From a virus, in the IMG/VR virus record IMGVR_UViG_3300049793_000366, positions 1-64,000 of that record: 64,000 nucleotides of DNA. One strand, written 5' to 3'. Both the position numbers and the translations under genes were made by a program. The notes beneath the pieces are model-generated. The model was not told the DNA's origin. It did not search any database and saw nothing but the letters and a program-made list of their open reading frames with translations. Below are positions 13,984 through 63,071 of the stretch, in pieces. Every line of letters starts with the position of its first letter. Positions within the stretch are counted from its first letter, which is position 1.

Positions 13984-15510
13984 TTATAGACAGTTTTTTA
14001 TTCTATCACTTGTTTGATTACTACCTATAATGAACATAGTAGAAATCAAATCTGGTCCAGGAATACCACCCGTTACAGCAATTCTAAGTGAAGGCATTAC
14101 TTTACCCATCTTTATACCGCTTGATTCACATGAGTTATAAATAGCATTTTTAATACTATCAATATCCCAATCAATGGTTCCGAAATCTATTTTAGAAAAA
14201 ACAGTTTTGAAATCATCACTTATTGATTTCTTATCTGCTAAGTCAATAGCATCGTTACTGAAAAATAATCTCGCAGTTGGTAATAGGTCAATCATAAATG
14301 TTGCTCTTTCTTTACAGATAGTAGCAATCATAGAAGTCTCAACTGAACCATATTCAAACTTATCAGATCCATCGATATTATCTTTGATGTACTTAATAAG
14401 CACATCATCTGGAAGCAATCTTAGATAGTGAGAGTTGAACGAATCTGCTTTCTTGTGGTCAAACTTAGCACCGTGATGAACACATCCTGATAAACTAAAT
14501 TTATCAATAAGTGTATTCATATCCATAAACTCAACATCATCACCCGGATTCCAACCAAGTAGTGCTAAGAAGTTAATGAACGCATGAGGGTCATATCCTT
14601 TTTCTTTCCAACCAGTAACGGTTGTAACATCACCTTTATCATCGCTAACATCACAAGTCAATGGGAATACAGAGAAGCCATATTTATCAGCCATACGCTT
14701 TGATAACTTACCTTTACCATCTGGGTTTAATAGAAGTGATAAGTGAGCAAACTTAGGTGGTGTCCAACCAAAAGCATCATATAAAAGTACGTGAATTGGT
14801 GTTGACGGTAACCACTCTTCACCGCGAATAACGTGTGTGATTTCCATCGTGTGGTCGTCTACTACGTTAGCAAAGTGATATGTTGGAATACCATCTGATT
14901 TAATCAATACTTTATCATCAACTTCGTTTGTACTAATGGTGATGTCGCCACGAATTTCATCGTTGAATGTTACATCAATATTCGCATCAACTTTGAAACG
15001 AACAACATAAGTAGCACCAGAAGCTATTAAAGCATCAACTTCGTCTTTTGATAATGTTAATGAATTCTTACCATACATACGGGTTTTGAATCCGTATGAA
15101 GCCGGGAATCTATTTTCTTTACCGTCTTTAATAACAACGGCGGCAAAACGTTCAGCGAGTGCATCGATTTCATCTTTGCTATCAAACGCAATATAGGCTT
15201 TACCATTCGCGATTAATTCATCAACGAGTGGTTTATAAACATCAAGCCTTTCGGTTTGTCTGTAAGAGCCATATTTTGGATTTGGGTTCCACGGTGATTC
15301 ATCAGGTGTGATACCTACCCAATCAAGAGATTTTTTAATGTAGTCTTCTGCCCACGGTACAAAGCGTGTTCTATCAGTATCTTCGATCCTTAGGATGAAT
15401 GTACCATTGTTCTTTTTAGCAAAGAGATAGTTGAATAGTGCTGTGCGTAAACCGCCTAAGTGTAAAGGCCCTGTGGGTGATGGTGCAAAACGAACTCGAA
15501 TATTTGACAT
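13984..15510 (-). CDS. gltX: Glutamyl-tRNA synthetase
   Basis: A complete 508-residue class I synthetase that charges tRNA-Glu. The HIGH signature is HLGG (17-20) within FAPSPTGPLHLGG, and KMSKS is KLSKR (268-272). Other family blocks are present: RIEDTDRTR (41-49), RGEEWLPSTP (229-238), FAHLSLLLNPDGKGK (254-268) and INFLALLGWNPGD further on. The C-terminal anticodon-binding half is of normal length. Sequence style is close to Bacteroidota enzymes. It has its own host-type promoter and terminator, so it is a stand-alone unit, probably expressed early. With ileS it makes two phage-borne synthetases in the window. Confidence 0.95.
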   Translation of the reverse strand: MSNIRVRFAPSPTGPLHLGGLRTALFNYLFAKKNNGTFILRIEDTDRTRFVPWAEDYIKKSLDWVGITPDESPWNPNPKYGSYRQTERLDVYKPLVDELIANGKAYIAFDSKDEIDALAERFAAVVIKDGKENRFPASYGFKTRMYGKNSLTLSKDEVDALIASGATYVVRFKVDANIDVTFNDEIRGDITISTNEVDDKVLIKSDGIPTYHFANVVDDHTMEITHVIRGEEWLPSTPIHVLLYDAFGWTPPKFAHLSLLLNPDGKGKLSKRMADKYGFSVFPLTCDVSDDKGDVTTVTGWKEKGYDPHAFINFLALLGWNPGDDVEFMDMNTLIDKFSLSGCVHHGAKFDHKKADSFNSHYLRLLPDDVLIKYIKDNIDGSDKFEYGSVETSMIATICKERATFMIDLLPTARLFFSNDAIDLADKKSISDDFKTVFSKIDFGTIDWDIDSIKNAIYNSCESSGIKMGKVMPSLRIAVTGGIPGPDLISTMFIIGSNQTSDRIKNCL

Positions 15511-51545: not shown

Positions 51546-51577
51546 TTTGCTTATTCTGAATTAATTACATATATTTG
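51546..51577 (+). promoter_or_regulatory. Bacteroidota-type promoter of the ileS unit
   Basis: TTTG at 51546-51549 and TATATTTG at 51570-51577, exactly 20 bases apart, upstream of the ileS leader peptide. Confidence 0.8.
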
Positions 51578-51603
51578 TAGTCAAGAAAACAAATGAAATA
51601 AAT

Positions 51604-51614
51604 TTCAATATATA
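51604..51614 (+). promoter_or_regulatory. Late-type promoter motif variant TTCAATATATA before the ileS leader
   Basis: Ends 4 bases (CAGT) before the leader ATG at 51619, so ileS may be served by both promoter classes. Confidence 0.5.
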
Positions 51615-51618
51615 CAGT

Positions 51619-51681
51619 ATGAACTTTAACAGTATTATAATTATTCGTAAATCAACTCCTTGGTATAAACCAATTGGATAA
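51619..51681 (+). CDS. Leader peptide with four consecutive Ile codons upstream of ileS
   Basis: A 20-residue open frame, MNFNSIIIIRKSTPWYKPIG, with Ile codons ATT ATA ATT ATT at 51634-51645. Its ATG sits 4 bases after a late-type motif, the same spacing as at many real genes here. It is followed by a strong terminator and then ileS. This is the classical layout of an attenuator leader: a ribosome stalled at Ile codons for lack of Ile-tRNA would favour read-through. Too short for homology; function inferred from layout. Confidence 0.65.
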   Translation: MNFNSIIIIRKSTPWYKPIG

Positions 51682-51737
51682 CGAATAGTTATTACCCAAC
51701 TGAAAAGCCCAAGGACATTAAGCCTTGGGCTTTTTTT
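51657..51737 (+). promoter_or_regulatory. Predicted transcription attenuator of ileS
   Basis: The terminator stem is AAAGCCCAAGG (51704-51714) with CCTTGGGCTTT (51723-51733), followed by T. The upstream TCCTTGG (51657-51663, inside the leader frame) is complementary to CCAAGGA (51709-51715) in the terminator's left arm, so it can form a competing antiterminator. A ribosome at the leader stop would mask TCCTTGG; one stalled at the Ile run would leave it free. A further hairpin (ATAAC with GTTAT) lies between them at about 51678-51692. Confidence 0.65.
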
Positions 51738-51774
51738 ATTGCAAAAAATCTAAAAACAAAATAAACTTAAAAAT

Positions 51775-54003
51775 ATGAAAGAGAAAAACCTAAATATGCC
51801 TCAAACAGACTTCACACAGAGGTCAGAGTCATTGAAACGAGAACCAGAATTACTTAAACTCTGGAATGAGCTTGATGTACTTAAGCTTAGAAATGAATTA
51901 AATAGTGATACATTCACTTTACACGATGGACCGCCGTATGCTAACGGTGATGTTCACGTTGGTCACGTACTTAATAAAGTATTAAAAGATATGGTTGTTA
52001 AGTATCAACTAATGAGTGGTAAGAAAGTCAATTTCAGACCAGGATTTGACTGTCATGGTTTACCAACTGAATTAGCTGTTCTCAAAAAGCATGGCAAACT
52101 TGATGTGTCTGAACTGAGAGTTAAATGTAAAGAGTGGGCAACTGAGTATTCAGATAAGCAACGCGAATCATTTAAATCATTGGGTGTTTTCGCTGAATGG
52201 GATAACCCGTATTACACGATGTCACCTGAGTTCGAAGTTGGACAGCTTAAAGTATTATATAAGCTCTTAAACGATGGATTGATGTATCTTGATAGTAGAC
52301 CTGTGTATTACTCACCATCATCAAGAACTGTTTTAGCCGAATCAGAGCTTGAATATAAAAACAGAAAAGACAAATCTGCCTATTTCACCTTGGATGCCGA
52401 AGATGGTAGATTATTATTGGTTTGGACTACACAACCTTGGACAGCGTTAGGTAACGTAGCTGTTTGTGTTAATAACAGACTGACGTATGTAACAGTTGAA
52501 CAAGATTCTAAACTATATGTTGTTGCTAAGGATTTAGCTCACGTATTGAGTGGTGTTGTTGTAGATGAATATAGTGGTGAGAGTCTTGTTGGTCTTAAGT
52601 ATCACAATAAACTAACTAATACAGAGGGTGTTGTTGTGTCTGATAAATTCGTTAAGTCAAATAGTGGTACTGGTTTAGTACACTTATGTCCAGCACATGG
52701 TGAGGATGACTTCGATGTGTGTCAGAAACATAATCTATCATGTGATGATTTGACTGATTCTGGTGGTAAACTTCTTCTGAATGGGTTATTCTGTTTAGAC
52801 CAAGGTTCAGAGTCAGTTCTTGATATGATGAAAGAAAATGGTATGTTATATTCAACGTCTGAATATGAACACTCTTATCCACATGACTGGCGAACAAACG
52901 GACCTGTTTATTTTAAGCTAACTGAGCAATTCTTCCTTGATTTGGCTGAGTTAAAAGAGAAAGTATTAGCTGTCCTACCTACTGTTGATTTCACAGAAGA
53001 GCGTTGGAAAAACAGATTAACGAATATGTTGAATTTAAGAGACCGTTGGTGTTTATCGCGTCAAAGAAAATGGGGATTCCCTTTAGCTGTATTTCTTAAA
53101 GACGGTAAGCCATTTACGCATCCAGAATTAGAAGCTCACTTATTTGAGTTGTTTAAGCAGAATGGCTCTGATGTTTGGTTTAACTCAACAGAAGATGAAT
53201 TATTACCTGAGCAATTTAAGAATACTGGTTTAGTTAAGTGTGATTATACATTAGATGTGTGGTTTGATTCTGGTGTTAGTTGGTATTCAGTTGTGGGTGG
53301 TCAATCAGATGTTTACTTCGAAGGTTCAGACCAACACAGAGGTTGGTTTCAGTCTTCATTACTAACATCAGTAGCAATGACTGGTGAAGCACCTTACAAA
53401 AAAGTACTTACACACGGATTTGTATTGGATGATAAGGGAAGAAAGATGTCTAAATCATTAGGTAATGTTGTAGAACCAAAGACTGTTCAACAAAAGTATA
53501 ATACTGATGTGCTTAGATTGTGGGCGGCTGTTGTTAACTATGGTGATGATGCACAATTAGGTGATGGTGTGTTGAAGAGCTGTTCTGAATATTATTTCAA
53601 ATTTAGAAATACGCTTAAATATTTACTTGGTAATATGTATGGGTATGATTTTAGAGAGGTACAGCTAAATGAAAAAGATAGACTGGCTCTTACTCGATGT
53701 GATGCTATGTATAATAATTGTTTAAAGTCATATTCCGAGTATAACTTCAGAAAAGTATTTGAAGAATTAATGTCGTGGGTTTCAGAATTTTCAAGTCAGT
53801 ACTTAGACAATCAAACAAAATCCTTTTTATATGAATATGATGTTAATTCCGATGAACGTCAACAATGTCAATATGTTCTTAGGTATGCATTAGAGCGTTT
53901 TATGAAAGTACTTGCTCCTATGTGTTCATTTTTAGCAGAAGACGCTTATCAACATTATGAGTTCAAACAAGATGTTTCTGTATTTATGGAAAAAATGGAA
54001 TAA
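51775..54003 (+). CDS. ileS: Isoleucyl-tRNA synthetase, shortened C-terminus
   Basis: A 742-residue class I synthetase that charges tRNA-Ile. HIGH is HVGH (61-64) after GPPYANGDV, and KMSKS is intact (557-561). FDCHGLPTE (91-99), the CP1 editing-domain motifs WTTQPWT (217-223) and HGEDDFDV (308-315), and GSDQHRGWFQSSLL (517-530) identify IleRS with a proofreading site. It is about 200 residues shorter than typical bacterial IleRS and lacks the C-terminal Cys-rich zinc domain, so anticodon-end recognition is reduced. The start MKEKNLNMPQ follows the attenuator by 38 bases; Met8 is an alternative. It is expressed downstream of a leader with an Ile run. Confidence 0.95.
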   Translation: MKEKNLNMPQTDFTQRSESLKREPELLKLWNELDVLKLRNELNSDTFTLHDGPPYANGDVHVGHVLNKVLKDMVVKYQLMSGKKVNFRPGFDCHGLPTELAVLKKHGKLDVSELRVKCKEWATEYSDKQRESFKSLGVFAEWDNPYYTMSPEFEVGQLKVLYKLLNDGLMYLDSRPVYYSPSSRTVLAESELEYKNRKDKSAYFTLDAEDGRLLLVWTTQPWTALGNVAVCVNNRLTYVTVEQDSKLYVVAKDLAHVLSGVVVDEYSGESLVGLKYHNKLTNTEGVVVSDKFVKSNSGTGLVHLCPAHGEDDFDVCQKHNLSCDDLTDSGGKLLLNGLFCLDQGSESVLDMMKENGMLYSTSEYEHSYPHDWRTNGPVYFKLTEQFFLDLAELKEKVLAVLPTVDFTEERWKNRLTNMLNLRDRWCLSRQRKWGFPLAVFLKDGKPFTHPELEAHLFELFKQNGSDVWFNSTEDELLPEQFKNTGLVKCDYTLDVWFDSGVSWYSVVGGQSDVYFEGSDQHRGWFQSSLLTSVAMTGEAPYKKVLTHGFVLDDKGRKMSKSLGNVVEPKTVQQKYNTDVLRLWAAVVNYGDDAQLGDGVLKSCSEYYFKFRNTLKYLLGNMYGYDFREVQLNEKDRLALTRCDAMYNNCLKSYSEYNFRKVFEELMSWVSEFSSQYLDNQTKSFLYEYDVNSDERQQCQYVLRYALERFMKVLAPMCSFLAEDAYQHYEFKQDVSVFMEKME

Positions 54004-59830: not shown

Positions 59831-59957
59831 TCTCATTTATCACCGTAACTCGTAAGCAAGAAGACCAATTCTCTTACTCACCACCTAATGAACAACAGAT
59901 ATTAATCTGAGCCCCATCTTTCCGATGGCATGATAAAGTGTATCTCTCGATACAGGG
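59831..59957 (-). ncRNA. Putative structured RNA downstream of the tmRNA
   Basis: No protein gene lies here. On the minus strand, directly 3' of the tmRNA, there are several short perfect hairpins: GTATC/GATAC with a GAGA loop (59940-59953), CCATC/GATGG (59914-59928), CAGAT/ATCTG (59896-59909), and a longer arm with outer TCATT/AATGA (59833-59891) enclosing GTAAG/CTTAC (59852-59877). It does not fold as a tRNA and matches no ribozyme I can recall. It may be a processing or stability element of the tmRNA precursor, or a separate RNA. Confidence 0.4.
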
Positions 59958-60348
59958 TGGAGAAGACGGGAATCGAACCCGTGTCCAATGATATCAGTGA
60001 ACTACTTTCTACAAGTTTATTTTAGTTTTCTAACTAAACCAAATAATCAATTTTTTTAACGACTAAAGAGATAATATGTCGCCGATTCAGTTATATACCA
60101 CTTGTGTCGAGAACTGTGGTTCCGAAGATTTTGTCGATTTTAAGCAATCTCAAGTTCTTCAACTTGAGTAGCAGTAGTCTTAGACTTTGCTAATACACTT
60201 AAAATATCGGATAACGATCCGACTTCGTTTGTAATTACGTTGCCGTTTACAGATTTTATCTACTAATTTATTAATCGCACGTTTTATTAGACAAAGCGAT
60301 ACTTGCTTATAACTCTCATCTCATCACCGTCGAAGCCTTAACTTCCCC
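59958..60348 (-). ncRNA. ssrA: Transfer-messenger RNA (tmRNA)
   Basis: The 5' end GGGGAAGTTAAGGCTTCGAC (from 60348) and the 3' T-arm ACGGGTTCGATTCCCGT followed by CTTCTCC form the tRNA-like half. GGGGAAG pairs with CTTCTCC over 7 bases with one G-U, followed by the discriminator A at 59958. CCA is not fully encoded (ACCC). TGTAGAAA near the 3' end, conserved in tmRNAs, is present. The tag-coding region starts after GTAAAC near 60244. The RNA is about 391 bases. Genes like this rescue stalled ribosomes with SmpB. A late-type motif variant lies 20 bases upstream. Confidence 0.9.
60140..60244 (-). other. Tag-coding region of the tmRNA, unusually long with non-LAA end
   Basis: Reading from the GGC after GTAAAC (60244), the frame runs 34 codons to TAA at 60140-60142. 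It begins GNVITNEVGS, has SDILSVLAKSK in the middle and ends QVEELEIA. Usual bacterial tags are about 10 residues ending in LAA. The resume codon is inferred by analogy with the known position. Two perfect hairpins lie inside: TCGGAT/ATCCGA (60207-60222) and CTCAAGTT/AACTTGAG (60149-60168). Confidence 0.6.
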
Positions 60349-61921: not shown

Positions 61922-62158
61922 TTATTTTTTAAATTTGCCCGCCATCGAGCTAAAATCCCTCATATATGAACTTGGATTCATATTAGGTTGATTTTTTTCT
62001 TGTTTATCTCTGTCCTTATTCTCTTCTTCTGTTAATTCATTTACCAATTTGACAACTTCTTCAAATTGCCAAAAAGGTAAATTATTAGCATCCGTCTCAG
62101 ACATATGATAGTGCTTACTAAGCAATAGTTTATTTTTTAATAAACTGGTCAAAGGCAT
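61922..62158 (-). CDS. Small baseplate hub assembly protein (T4 gp51-like)
   Basis: A 78-residue protein from the ATG at 62158 (MPLTSLLKNKLLLSKHYHMS), overlapping the upstream hub gene by 29 bases; an upstream ATG at 62224 would overlap by 95. HYHMSETDANNLPFWQFEEV is the style of small phage hub assembly factors (T4 gp51 region), where a short Leu-x-x-Met-Pro-x-x-x-Phe-Glu motif sits after the hub gene. The position directly after a gp26-like gene supports this. Confidence 0.55.
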   Translation of the reverse strand: MPLTSLLKNKLLLSKHYHMSETDANNLPFWQFEEVVKLVNELTEEENKDRDKQEKNQPNMNPSSYMRDFSSMAGKFKK

Positions 62159-63071
62159 CTGGAAGAGAGAAAATAGCTGACGGTCCGTTGGGAAATACCA
62201 TATCAGTGTGGACCTCCTCGCCACACTGGGTACATTTCTTTTTTAAATTCTTAATACCAAACTGCATTTTATTAACAGCCGCATTTAAGAATTGGAAAGA
62301 AGGAATAGACATTTGTTGGAATTCTAATAACTTAGATTTAATACCATCAACTGTAATACCATTTCTACCAACTAATGTGAATGGAATAATTTTCAAGAAT
62401 GATAAGTTTGGTGTTTTCTTATCATTGTATTCCTTTACAATATATTCAGTGAATGACTTCTGTAACCCAATTGTTGGTGGTGCAATTTTAAACACAGAAC
62501 CTTCAACTGTTTCGAAGATAAATTGTTTTTCAATGCTATCGAAATACTTATCAAGTGCTTCCGGCATTAAATGATGTTCAAAGTTTTGACGCTTTAATTC
62601 AACTGATAATTCGCACCCACATTGACAAGTAGCATTTGTAGACAATATGTTACCAGCTTGGAATGTTAACTCACGAATTAAGAATATTAAGTATATTCTA
62701 TCACCATCTTTAACATCCATGTATGAACCAACTCTATCATCAACATACTTTACACGAACGCAAGCAGATAGCATATCATTCATTTTTTCAATCATATCAT
62801 AGAAGTTTTTATCATCTACCATTGAATATGCTTGAATTTCTTTTACCTGTGCCGCACGTACCATTATTTTAGTACCGTTTTGATAGAACATACCAAGCGG
62901 TAAATCTTTAGCATCAAACGCGAAATACTGTAAATCTGCTATACGACCAGTATCTTCTTGTTTTAGCCCTTTAATAGATTCCTCAAATTGTGGAACCTTT
63001 GTTTTATTTACGTCAGTTTCATCTAAATACTTTTTTAGAAATTCTTCTTCGTTAATCTGAGATTGTGTCAT
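62130..63071 (-). CDS. Baseplate hub subunit (T4 gp26-like), zinc-binding
   Basis: A 313-residue protein of the T4-type baseplate hub family. After the LPLGMFYQNG region (57-66), GDRIYLIFLIRELTF (123-137) is the hallmark hydrophobic core. Cysteines at 149, 151 and 153 (CQCGC) pair with CTQCGE (280-285) to form a probable zinc site that braces the fold. It builds the baseplate hub that nucleates the tube. It lies between the sheath gene and the hub assembly protein on one strand. Confidence 0.8.
   Translation of the reverse strand: MTQSQINEEEFLKKYLDETDVNKTKVPQFEESIKGLKQEDTGRIADLQYFAFDAKDLPLGMFYQNGTKIMVRAAQVKEIQAYSMVDDKNFYDMIEKMNDMLSACVRVKYVDDRVGSYMDVKDGDRIYLIFLIRELTFQAGNILSTNATCQCGCELSVELKRQNFEHHLMPEALDKYFDSIEKQFIFETVEGSVFKIAPPTIGLQKSFTEYIVKEYNDKKTPNLSFLKIIPFTLVGRNGITVDGIKSKLLEFQQMSIPSFQFLNAAVNKMQFGIKNLKKKCTQCGEEVHTDMVFPNGPSAIFSLPDAFDQFIKK

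Follow-up and report, generated by a model that had tools for sequence, protein, structure and literature searches.

Attenuators control enteric amino-acid operons such as trp, his, thr and ilvGMEDA; in thr and ilv the leader spells out two or three amino acids. The reach of this mechanism extends to aminoacyl-tRNA synthetase (aaRS) genes: leader-peptide attenuators have been described for pheST of gamma-proteobacteria and the Streptomyces genes trpS and leuS (PMC1262725), and hisS/hisZ of Bacillus are a further case (PMC2965389). In 2010, leader-peptide systems were known from Proteobacteria and Actinobacteria, to which the Bacillus study added Firmicutes by its own finding (PMC2965389). It has long been asked why phages possess tRNA and synthetase genes. 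Huge phages of the Mahaphage group encode many tRNAs and up to 15 aaRSs, and those larger than 634 kb were assigned to Bacteroidetes hosts (PMC7162821). The words "attenuat" and "leader" are absent from the main text of that survey, and a full-text literature search, in which subscription papers and preprints were little covered, returned no report of attenuation in phages, over tRNA arrays or genome-wide. Attenuation itself is already known, and we did not find its use in phages, over tRNA arrays or throughout a genome reported.

We analyzed positions 1 to 64,000 of IMG/VR virus record IMGVR_UViG_3300049793_000366 (the window), a 508-kb phage record, in which the leader of ileS is very probably a ribosome-mediated transcription attenuator and a member of a phage-wide set that lies over tRNA and aaRS operons. 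This reading is built on anatomy, cognate match, alternative pairings and conservation, from which we infer termination, stalling and induction in infection. Like the enteric attenuators, the locus combines a short, putatively translated leader, cognate codons and mutually exclusive antiterminator and terminator forms, and a protector stem takes the place of the competing upstream hairpin of the enteric 1:2, 2:3 and 3:4 set. Whereas the enteric systems control biosynthesis, the present ones occur in phages, precede synthetase and tRNA genes, list up to seven amino acids per leader and form a whole set per genome. The bacterial aaRS attenuators likewise have an aaRS gene behind a leader and a terminator, but they are single cellular genes with neither tRNA arrays nor operon-matched lists of several amino acids. 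T-box riboswitches also sense tRNA charging and control aaRS genes; here, however, no T-box match was obtained and sensing would proceed via the codons of a translated frame. The Mahaphage group resembles this phage as large phages with many tRNAs and aaRSs, a likeness by gene content. If the reading is correct, the range of leader-peptide attenuation includes phages, tRNA arrays and lists with as many as seven amino acids.

The ileS leader of the window

The first-pass annotation had described a 20-codon frame with an Ile run, followed by a terminator and ileS, and had likened the arrangement to an enteric attenuator. All of these parts were found where it had placed them (Table 1), together with a third element that it lacked, a 12-bp protector stem. 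The leader frame reads ATG AAC TTT AAC AGT ATT ATA ATT ATT CGT ... GGA TAA, the terminator sequence (51702-51735) is GAAAAGCCCAAGG-ACATTAAG-CCTTGGGCTTTTT with a fold of -19.9 kcal/mol, and the ileS product scored 695.6 bits against its NCBIfam model, over the cut-off.

Table 1. Parts of the ileS unit in the window
Feature	Position	Strand	Description
Promoter candidate, Bacteroidota-type	51546..51577	+	TTTG (51546-51549), 20 nt, TATATTTG (51570-51577); from sequence
ATATATA motif ("late-type motif" of the first-pass annotation)	51608..51614	+	4 nt 5' of the leader ATG
Leader peptide frame, 20 codons, MNFNSIIIIRKSTPWYKPIG	51619..51681	+	Conserved in two relatives
Putative sensor, four Ile codons ATT ATA ATT ATT	51634..51645	+	Frame translation
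Protector hairpin, 12-bp stem	51637..51692	+	51637-51648 pairs with 51681-51692; encloses TCCTTGG
Antiterminator segment TCCTTGG	51657..51663	+	Pairs with CCAAGGA 51709-51715, 7 bp
Intrinsic terminator	51702..51737	+	Arms 51702-51714 and 51723-51735, T run to 51737
ileS, isoleucyl-tRNA synthetase, 742 aa, putative controlled gene	51775..54003	+	NCBIfam TIGR00392, PF00133

The region 51585-51745 folds much better than its shuffles (z = -5.7, 0/200), and the part 5' of the terminator, with the protector stem, reaches -16.2 kcal/mol (z = -3.7). The proposed complementarity of TCCTTGG to the left arm of the terminator holds, with a duplex energy of -11.2 kcal/mol. When a ribosome was modelled on Ile codons 6-9, with its 3' edge set at 14 nt past the A site, the exposed RNA folded as the antiterminator (-15.6 to -15.8 kcal/mol), in agreement with the earlier idea that a ribosome stalled on the Ile run frees TCCTTGG. 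Tested on its own, the antiterminator of this unit gave p values of 0.02-0.06 against shuffles. The string IIII occurred in 3 nested frames among the 954 short frames of the window (nested starts counted) and, taken alone, is a weak signal. The significance of the unit lies in the combination of its features, in their conservation in two relatives and in ten sister units in the same genome.

In the mechanism that we propose, RNA polymerase would start upstream of 51619 and a ribosome would translate the leader peptide. While Ile-tRNA(Ile) is plentiful, the ribosome would pass the Ile run, the protector hairpin and/or the ribosome would block pairing of TCCTTGG, and with this segment blocked the terminator would form and no ileS would be made. 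When charged tRNA-Ile is scarce, the ribosome would stall at codons 6-9 and thereby open the protector stem; the freed TCCTTGG would then pair with the left arm of the terminator, and transcription would reach ileS. The first-pass annotation had instead ascribed the off state to a ribosome at the stop codon that masks TCCTTGG. Such a ribosome would overlap the segment by its rear edge only, and in several sister units the segment lies at least 40 nt upstream of the stop.

Motifs upstream of the leader recur in the other units. ATATATA stands within 19 nt before the ATG in 23 of 50 leaders versus 8 of 1258 ATGs of the window, an enrichment of about 70-fold, and is perhaps a phage promoter or initiation element. 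TAnnTTTG was present in the 100 nt upstream of 30/50 leaders versus 124/1258 window ATGs. From this promoter motif and the assignment of huge phages above 634 kb to Bacteroidetes (PMC7162821), we infer a Bacteroidota host for the window phage, whose record, like others used here, was assembled from metagenome data.

Comparison with related phages sustained the arrangement at close range. Two relatives, the record L001 (ileS protein 81% identical, leader MLNRNIIIIRRSIPWYKPIG) and the uncultured phage LR745206.1 (634,780 bp; 73%, leader MNFNTIIIIRYSIPWSIPIG), keep the four Ile codons, both pairings and the terminator. The reading frame, the cognate codons and the peptide are retained, as would be expected of a translated leader. 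In the terminator, AAGCCC/GGGCTT of the window phage became AACCCC/GGGGTT in LR745206.1, one pair being changed on both sides from G-C to C-G, and other changed terminator pairs in the relatives were kept as G-U. This covariation was read informally from arm tables, because a MAFFT alignment of the Gln leaders misplaced the arms. A distant 181-kb record (L016, ileS 35%) has its own IIII leader, MKTLNTFVNSIIIIPKLPMS, and a terminator before ileS, with an unconvincing antiterminator (p 0.42-0.47); its second leader, ..TIRPLPLM.., precedes proS and has a strong one (p 0.002). At the remaining, more distant phage ileS loci that were scanned, however, the arrangement was absent, and many phage leuS loci (e.g. 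L081, L083 and L086-L092) showed neither leader nor terminator by the scan. Thus, as far as the scan defines it, the attenuator trait is lineage-specific. As to a host origin of the ileS leader, no short III frame with a terminator was found at the 80 closest bacterial ileS loci, whose titled organisms were mostly Cyanobacteria and other phyla with no named Bacteroidota (the likely host), and valS and serS as queries found no viral relatives.

Sister units and the match between leader and operon

Used as a query against the 508-kb record, the leader DNA matched the terminator of hisS, which is preceded by the leader MKTLNINTHFHFHFENLELGVH. Because of this match, the phage, which encodes many aaRSs and tRNAs, was scanned for further terminators with a short frame ending just upstream. 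Leaders were chosen by position (stop codon within about 60-70 nt upstream of the terminator, longest frame per stop); in L195, L198 and L199 two frames qualified, and the choice between them, made on typical stop distance or on length, was to a small degree free. Because only stretches of each genome were scanned, the numbers of units per genome are minimum counts.

The fetched stretches of the window phage held eleven units, the ileS unit and ten more. Single amino acids are listed by IIII before ileS, VVVV before valS and LLLL before leuS. The other leaders are HFHFHF (hisS and a pheS-like gene), QQVQQQQ (four tRNA-Gln, glnS), SRSRSSRS (tRNA-Ser, tRNA-Arg, serS), QVQPDPQ (tRNA-Asp, Glu, Pro, proS), LADD (aspS), MNLNNTMTTVVNITLCNIR (tRNA-Leu, Asn, Thr, Arg, Ile, Val, Met, thrS, asnS, argS-like), IYIGYIAEGGYEAG (tRNA-Glu, Tyr, Gly, Ile, Ala, glyS-like, alaS-like, tyrS) and SSHKHFSKSNKWFS (tRNA-His, Lys, Trp, Phe, Ser, lysS, trpS). 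With ten cognate leaders elsewhere in the same phage, coincidence is untenable for the ileS leader, which is thus one of a predicted genome-wide set and not a lone curiosity. Unlike the other aaRS genes, gltX in the window (glutamyl-tRNA synthetase, 13984-15510, minus strand; TIGR00464, 431 bits) has no leader-terminator unit.

The gene after hisS (L023:10862-11962, at about 415.9-417.0 kb of the window phage) matched the NCBIfam model "PheS-related mystery ligase SrmL" with 434 bits (cut-off 300), and this model fits it better than PheS. The HFHFHF leader of the operon suggests phenylalanine as the substrate, and leaders may in this way allow the substrates of unclear phage synthetases to be read. 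Several aaRSs in L023 and L044 are short (trpS 240 aa, hisS 211 aa, valS 509 aa), and frames that by eye resemble homing endonucleases or LAGLIDADG proteins adjoin trpS, the glyS-like gene and tyrS in these stretches.

We scored the match as the number of leader residues that belong to the amino acids of the operon and compared it with permuted leader-operon pairings. In the window phage, 97 of 255 leader residues were cognate versus 36.8 +- 8.4 after permutation, and none of 200,000 permutations reached 97; LR745206.1 gave 72 versus 22.8 +- 6.8 (0/200,000). A third relative with five units (G001) gave 56 versus 25.5 with P = 0.009, close to the lowest value that five units allow. The hisS leader of LR745206.1, MRALHTYKITIDLG (L076:10086-10180), contains one His codon only and has a strong antiterminator (p 0.002); it is an exception or a different sensor.

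Two distant huge-phage records first met as leuS relatives, G006 (482 kb) and G007 (369 kb), served as a blind set. Their regions were chosen after the hypothesis, by tRNA position only (Rfam tRNA model), and scanned by the same procedure; the leuS-operon leaders of L195 and L198 were known beforehand and the other nine were new. All 11 leaders before larger tRNA clusters matched their operon, 42 of 43 amino-acid types were covered, and 142 residues were cognate versus 59.6 +- 11.8 permuted (0/200,000). These leaders are TADCADE (Asp, Cys, Glu, Ala), NNNNQQQYQQNNY (Asn, Gln, Tyr), PQFQFVVPF (Pro, Phe, Val), HIHKHQIWH (Trp, His; a three-tRNA unit), RIIRIRRR (Ile, Arg), KITTGTTTTTKTGKGK (Thr, Lys, Gly, with Met and Asn), LSLSLSLSLSLS (tRNA-Leu/Ser and leuS), NINIHMISISNWRRNSHR (Ser, Trp, Asn, His, Ile, Met, Arg), LASLLVILLCSLVV (Cys, Val, Leu), FDFAFTAAEED (Phe, Glu, Asp, Ala) and TTSTTYQTQKQQPKGGKPYG (Gln, Lys, Pro, Gly, Tyr, Thr). 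No such leader stood before the solitary tRNAs of these regions or before clusters of at most three tRNAs, the Trp/His unit being the one exception. In all likelihood, nearly every phage tRNA/aaRS operon that we found has its own attenuator, with a leader that names the operon's amino acids, whether a single one (IIII, VVVV, LLLL) or as many as seven.

ARAGORN reported a tRNA with anticodon CTA (amber suppressor type) in both G006 and G007 (L191, L196, L197). None of the leaders in these two genomes ends in TAG, which would fit a reading of TAG as an amino acid.

Antiterminators and geometry across units

A leader segment complementary to the left arm of the terminator is enriched over the eleven units of the window phage (Fisher P = 8e-9) and in the blind set alone (P = 1.3e-7, mononucleotide shuffles), whereas 14 other terminators of the window, taken as controls, showed no enrichment. 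We prefer these per-genome and blind figures, as P values over all 50 units include homologues and are non-independent. The alternative antiterminator sharing the left arm, as the first-pass annotation had drawn it for ileS, is present in the folds; it is weak in a few sister units (G000_Gln unit, p 0.16-0.19).

Cognate codons account for 48% of the codons before the antiterminator segment but for 17% of those inside or beyond it. The median spacing is 8 nt from the last cognate codon to the segment and 23.5 nt from the leader stop codon to the start of the terminator. In folds of the leader up to the terminator, 73% of the segment is paired on average (median z -2.1 over 50 units), so that protector pairing is a general feature. 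Between segment and stop lie anywhere from 4 to 41 nt (10th-90th percentile), and masking at the stop codon therefore cannot apply to every unit. The protector hairpin is therefore the more likely general off element, and the off state would more likely be set by this hairpin together with ribosome passage. Taken with the relatives and the cognate leaders, these tests, all of them made on sequence, support the enteric-type interpretation.

What the leaders may sense

Under this interpretation each leader would act as an OR gate, in which scarcity of any listed charged tRNA turns on the operon that supplies it. If each operon is held off until its own charged tRNA is short, the phage genes would serve as a stress response rather than as steady codon compensation, and from the leaders one could read which shortages the phage expects. 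As a tentative extension, less likely than not, huge phages may run a genome-wide, OR-gated surveillance of charged tRNAs, possibly to the isoacceptor level, that replaces only the tRNAs which the host removes in infection, for example by tRNA-cutting defence nucleases.

A related alternative keeps the same attenuator and names tRNA loss to host defence nucleases, not lack of an amino acid, as its physiological trigger. Many operons hold tRNA genes besides synthetases, and phage tRNAs counter tRNA-cutting defences (PMC10264068, PMC11555353). Moreover, in all cases seen, leader Arg codons belong to the same box (CGN or AGR) as the operon's tRNA-Arg genes, although genes of the window phage prefer AGR over CGN, 64 to 23. 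However, the ileS, valS, leuS and hisS units of the window phage contain no tRNA gene, and leader Ser codons did not agree with the box of the operon's tRNA-Ser. We regard this trigger as rather unlikely, and isoacceptor sensing is only a lead, since the Arg boxes agree and the Ser boxes do not.

In a second alternative, the leaders would be non-specific sensors of translation rate of the erm type, such that any slowing of the ribosome opens the terminator and the codon bias has another cause. The same anatomy would answer general slowing, and some leaders list as many as seven amino acids; yet the leaders differ exactly as the tRNAs and aaRSs of their operons differ, and a leader splits with its operon. 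The tRNA-Glu/Tyr/Gly/Ile/Ala operon of the window phage corresponds to two operons in LR745206.1, where the leader is divided likewise: ..SYESYYEEG.. precedes tRNA-Glu and tRNA-Tyr, and ..ISIAVIGNGAGAI.. precedes tRNA-Ile, Gly, Met and Ala with the glyS-like and alaS-like genes. A general rate sensor is thus highly improbable, and charged-tRNA sensing through cognate codons is the preferred reading.

Insulating terminators are common between phage operons, and short frames before them could be accidental or host-derived, with no regulation, as IIII does arise by chance; but no permutation, either in two genomes or in the blind two, equals the agreement of leader composition with the operons, and the units show an enrichment of antiterminator complementarity that the control terminators lack. 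The blind test refutes this explanation at the sequence level and leaves it a negligible probability. A T-box riboswitch, in which uncharged tRNA would bind the leader RNA and stabilize the antiterminator while the short frame is incidental, agrees with the gene class (T-boxes regulate aaRS genes including ileS in Firmicutes and Actinobacteria; PMC1262725), but its specifier needs no in-frame translated cognate codons, several per amino acid and for up to seven amino acids per leader, and it was rejected as extremely improbable because the covariance model detected no T-box consensus, neither the window nor 62 kb of sister loci giving an Rfam match at gathering threshold.

Two further features lie near the end of the window. 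A terminator at 63183-63158 (minus strand) stands between a short frame upstream, MGVIVNNVTVLRTGAIQSGGFLNP, and a gene at 62130-63071 (313 aa); the gene had no Pfam or NCBIfam match and its terminator showed no antiterminator signal (p 0.7). The phage also encodes a tmRNA at 59955-60348 (minus strand) with the tag AKSKTTATQVEELEIA, identified by ARAGORN and by Rfam RF00023.
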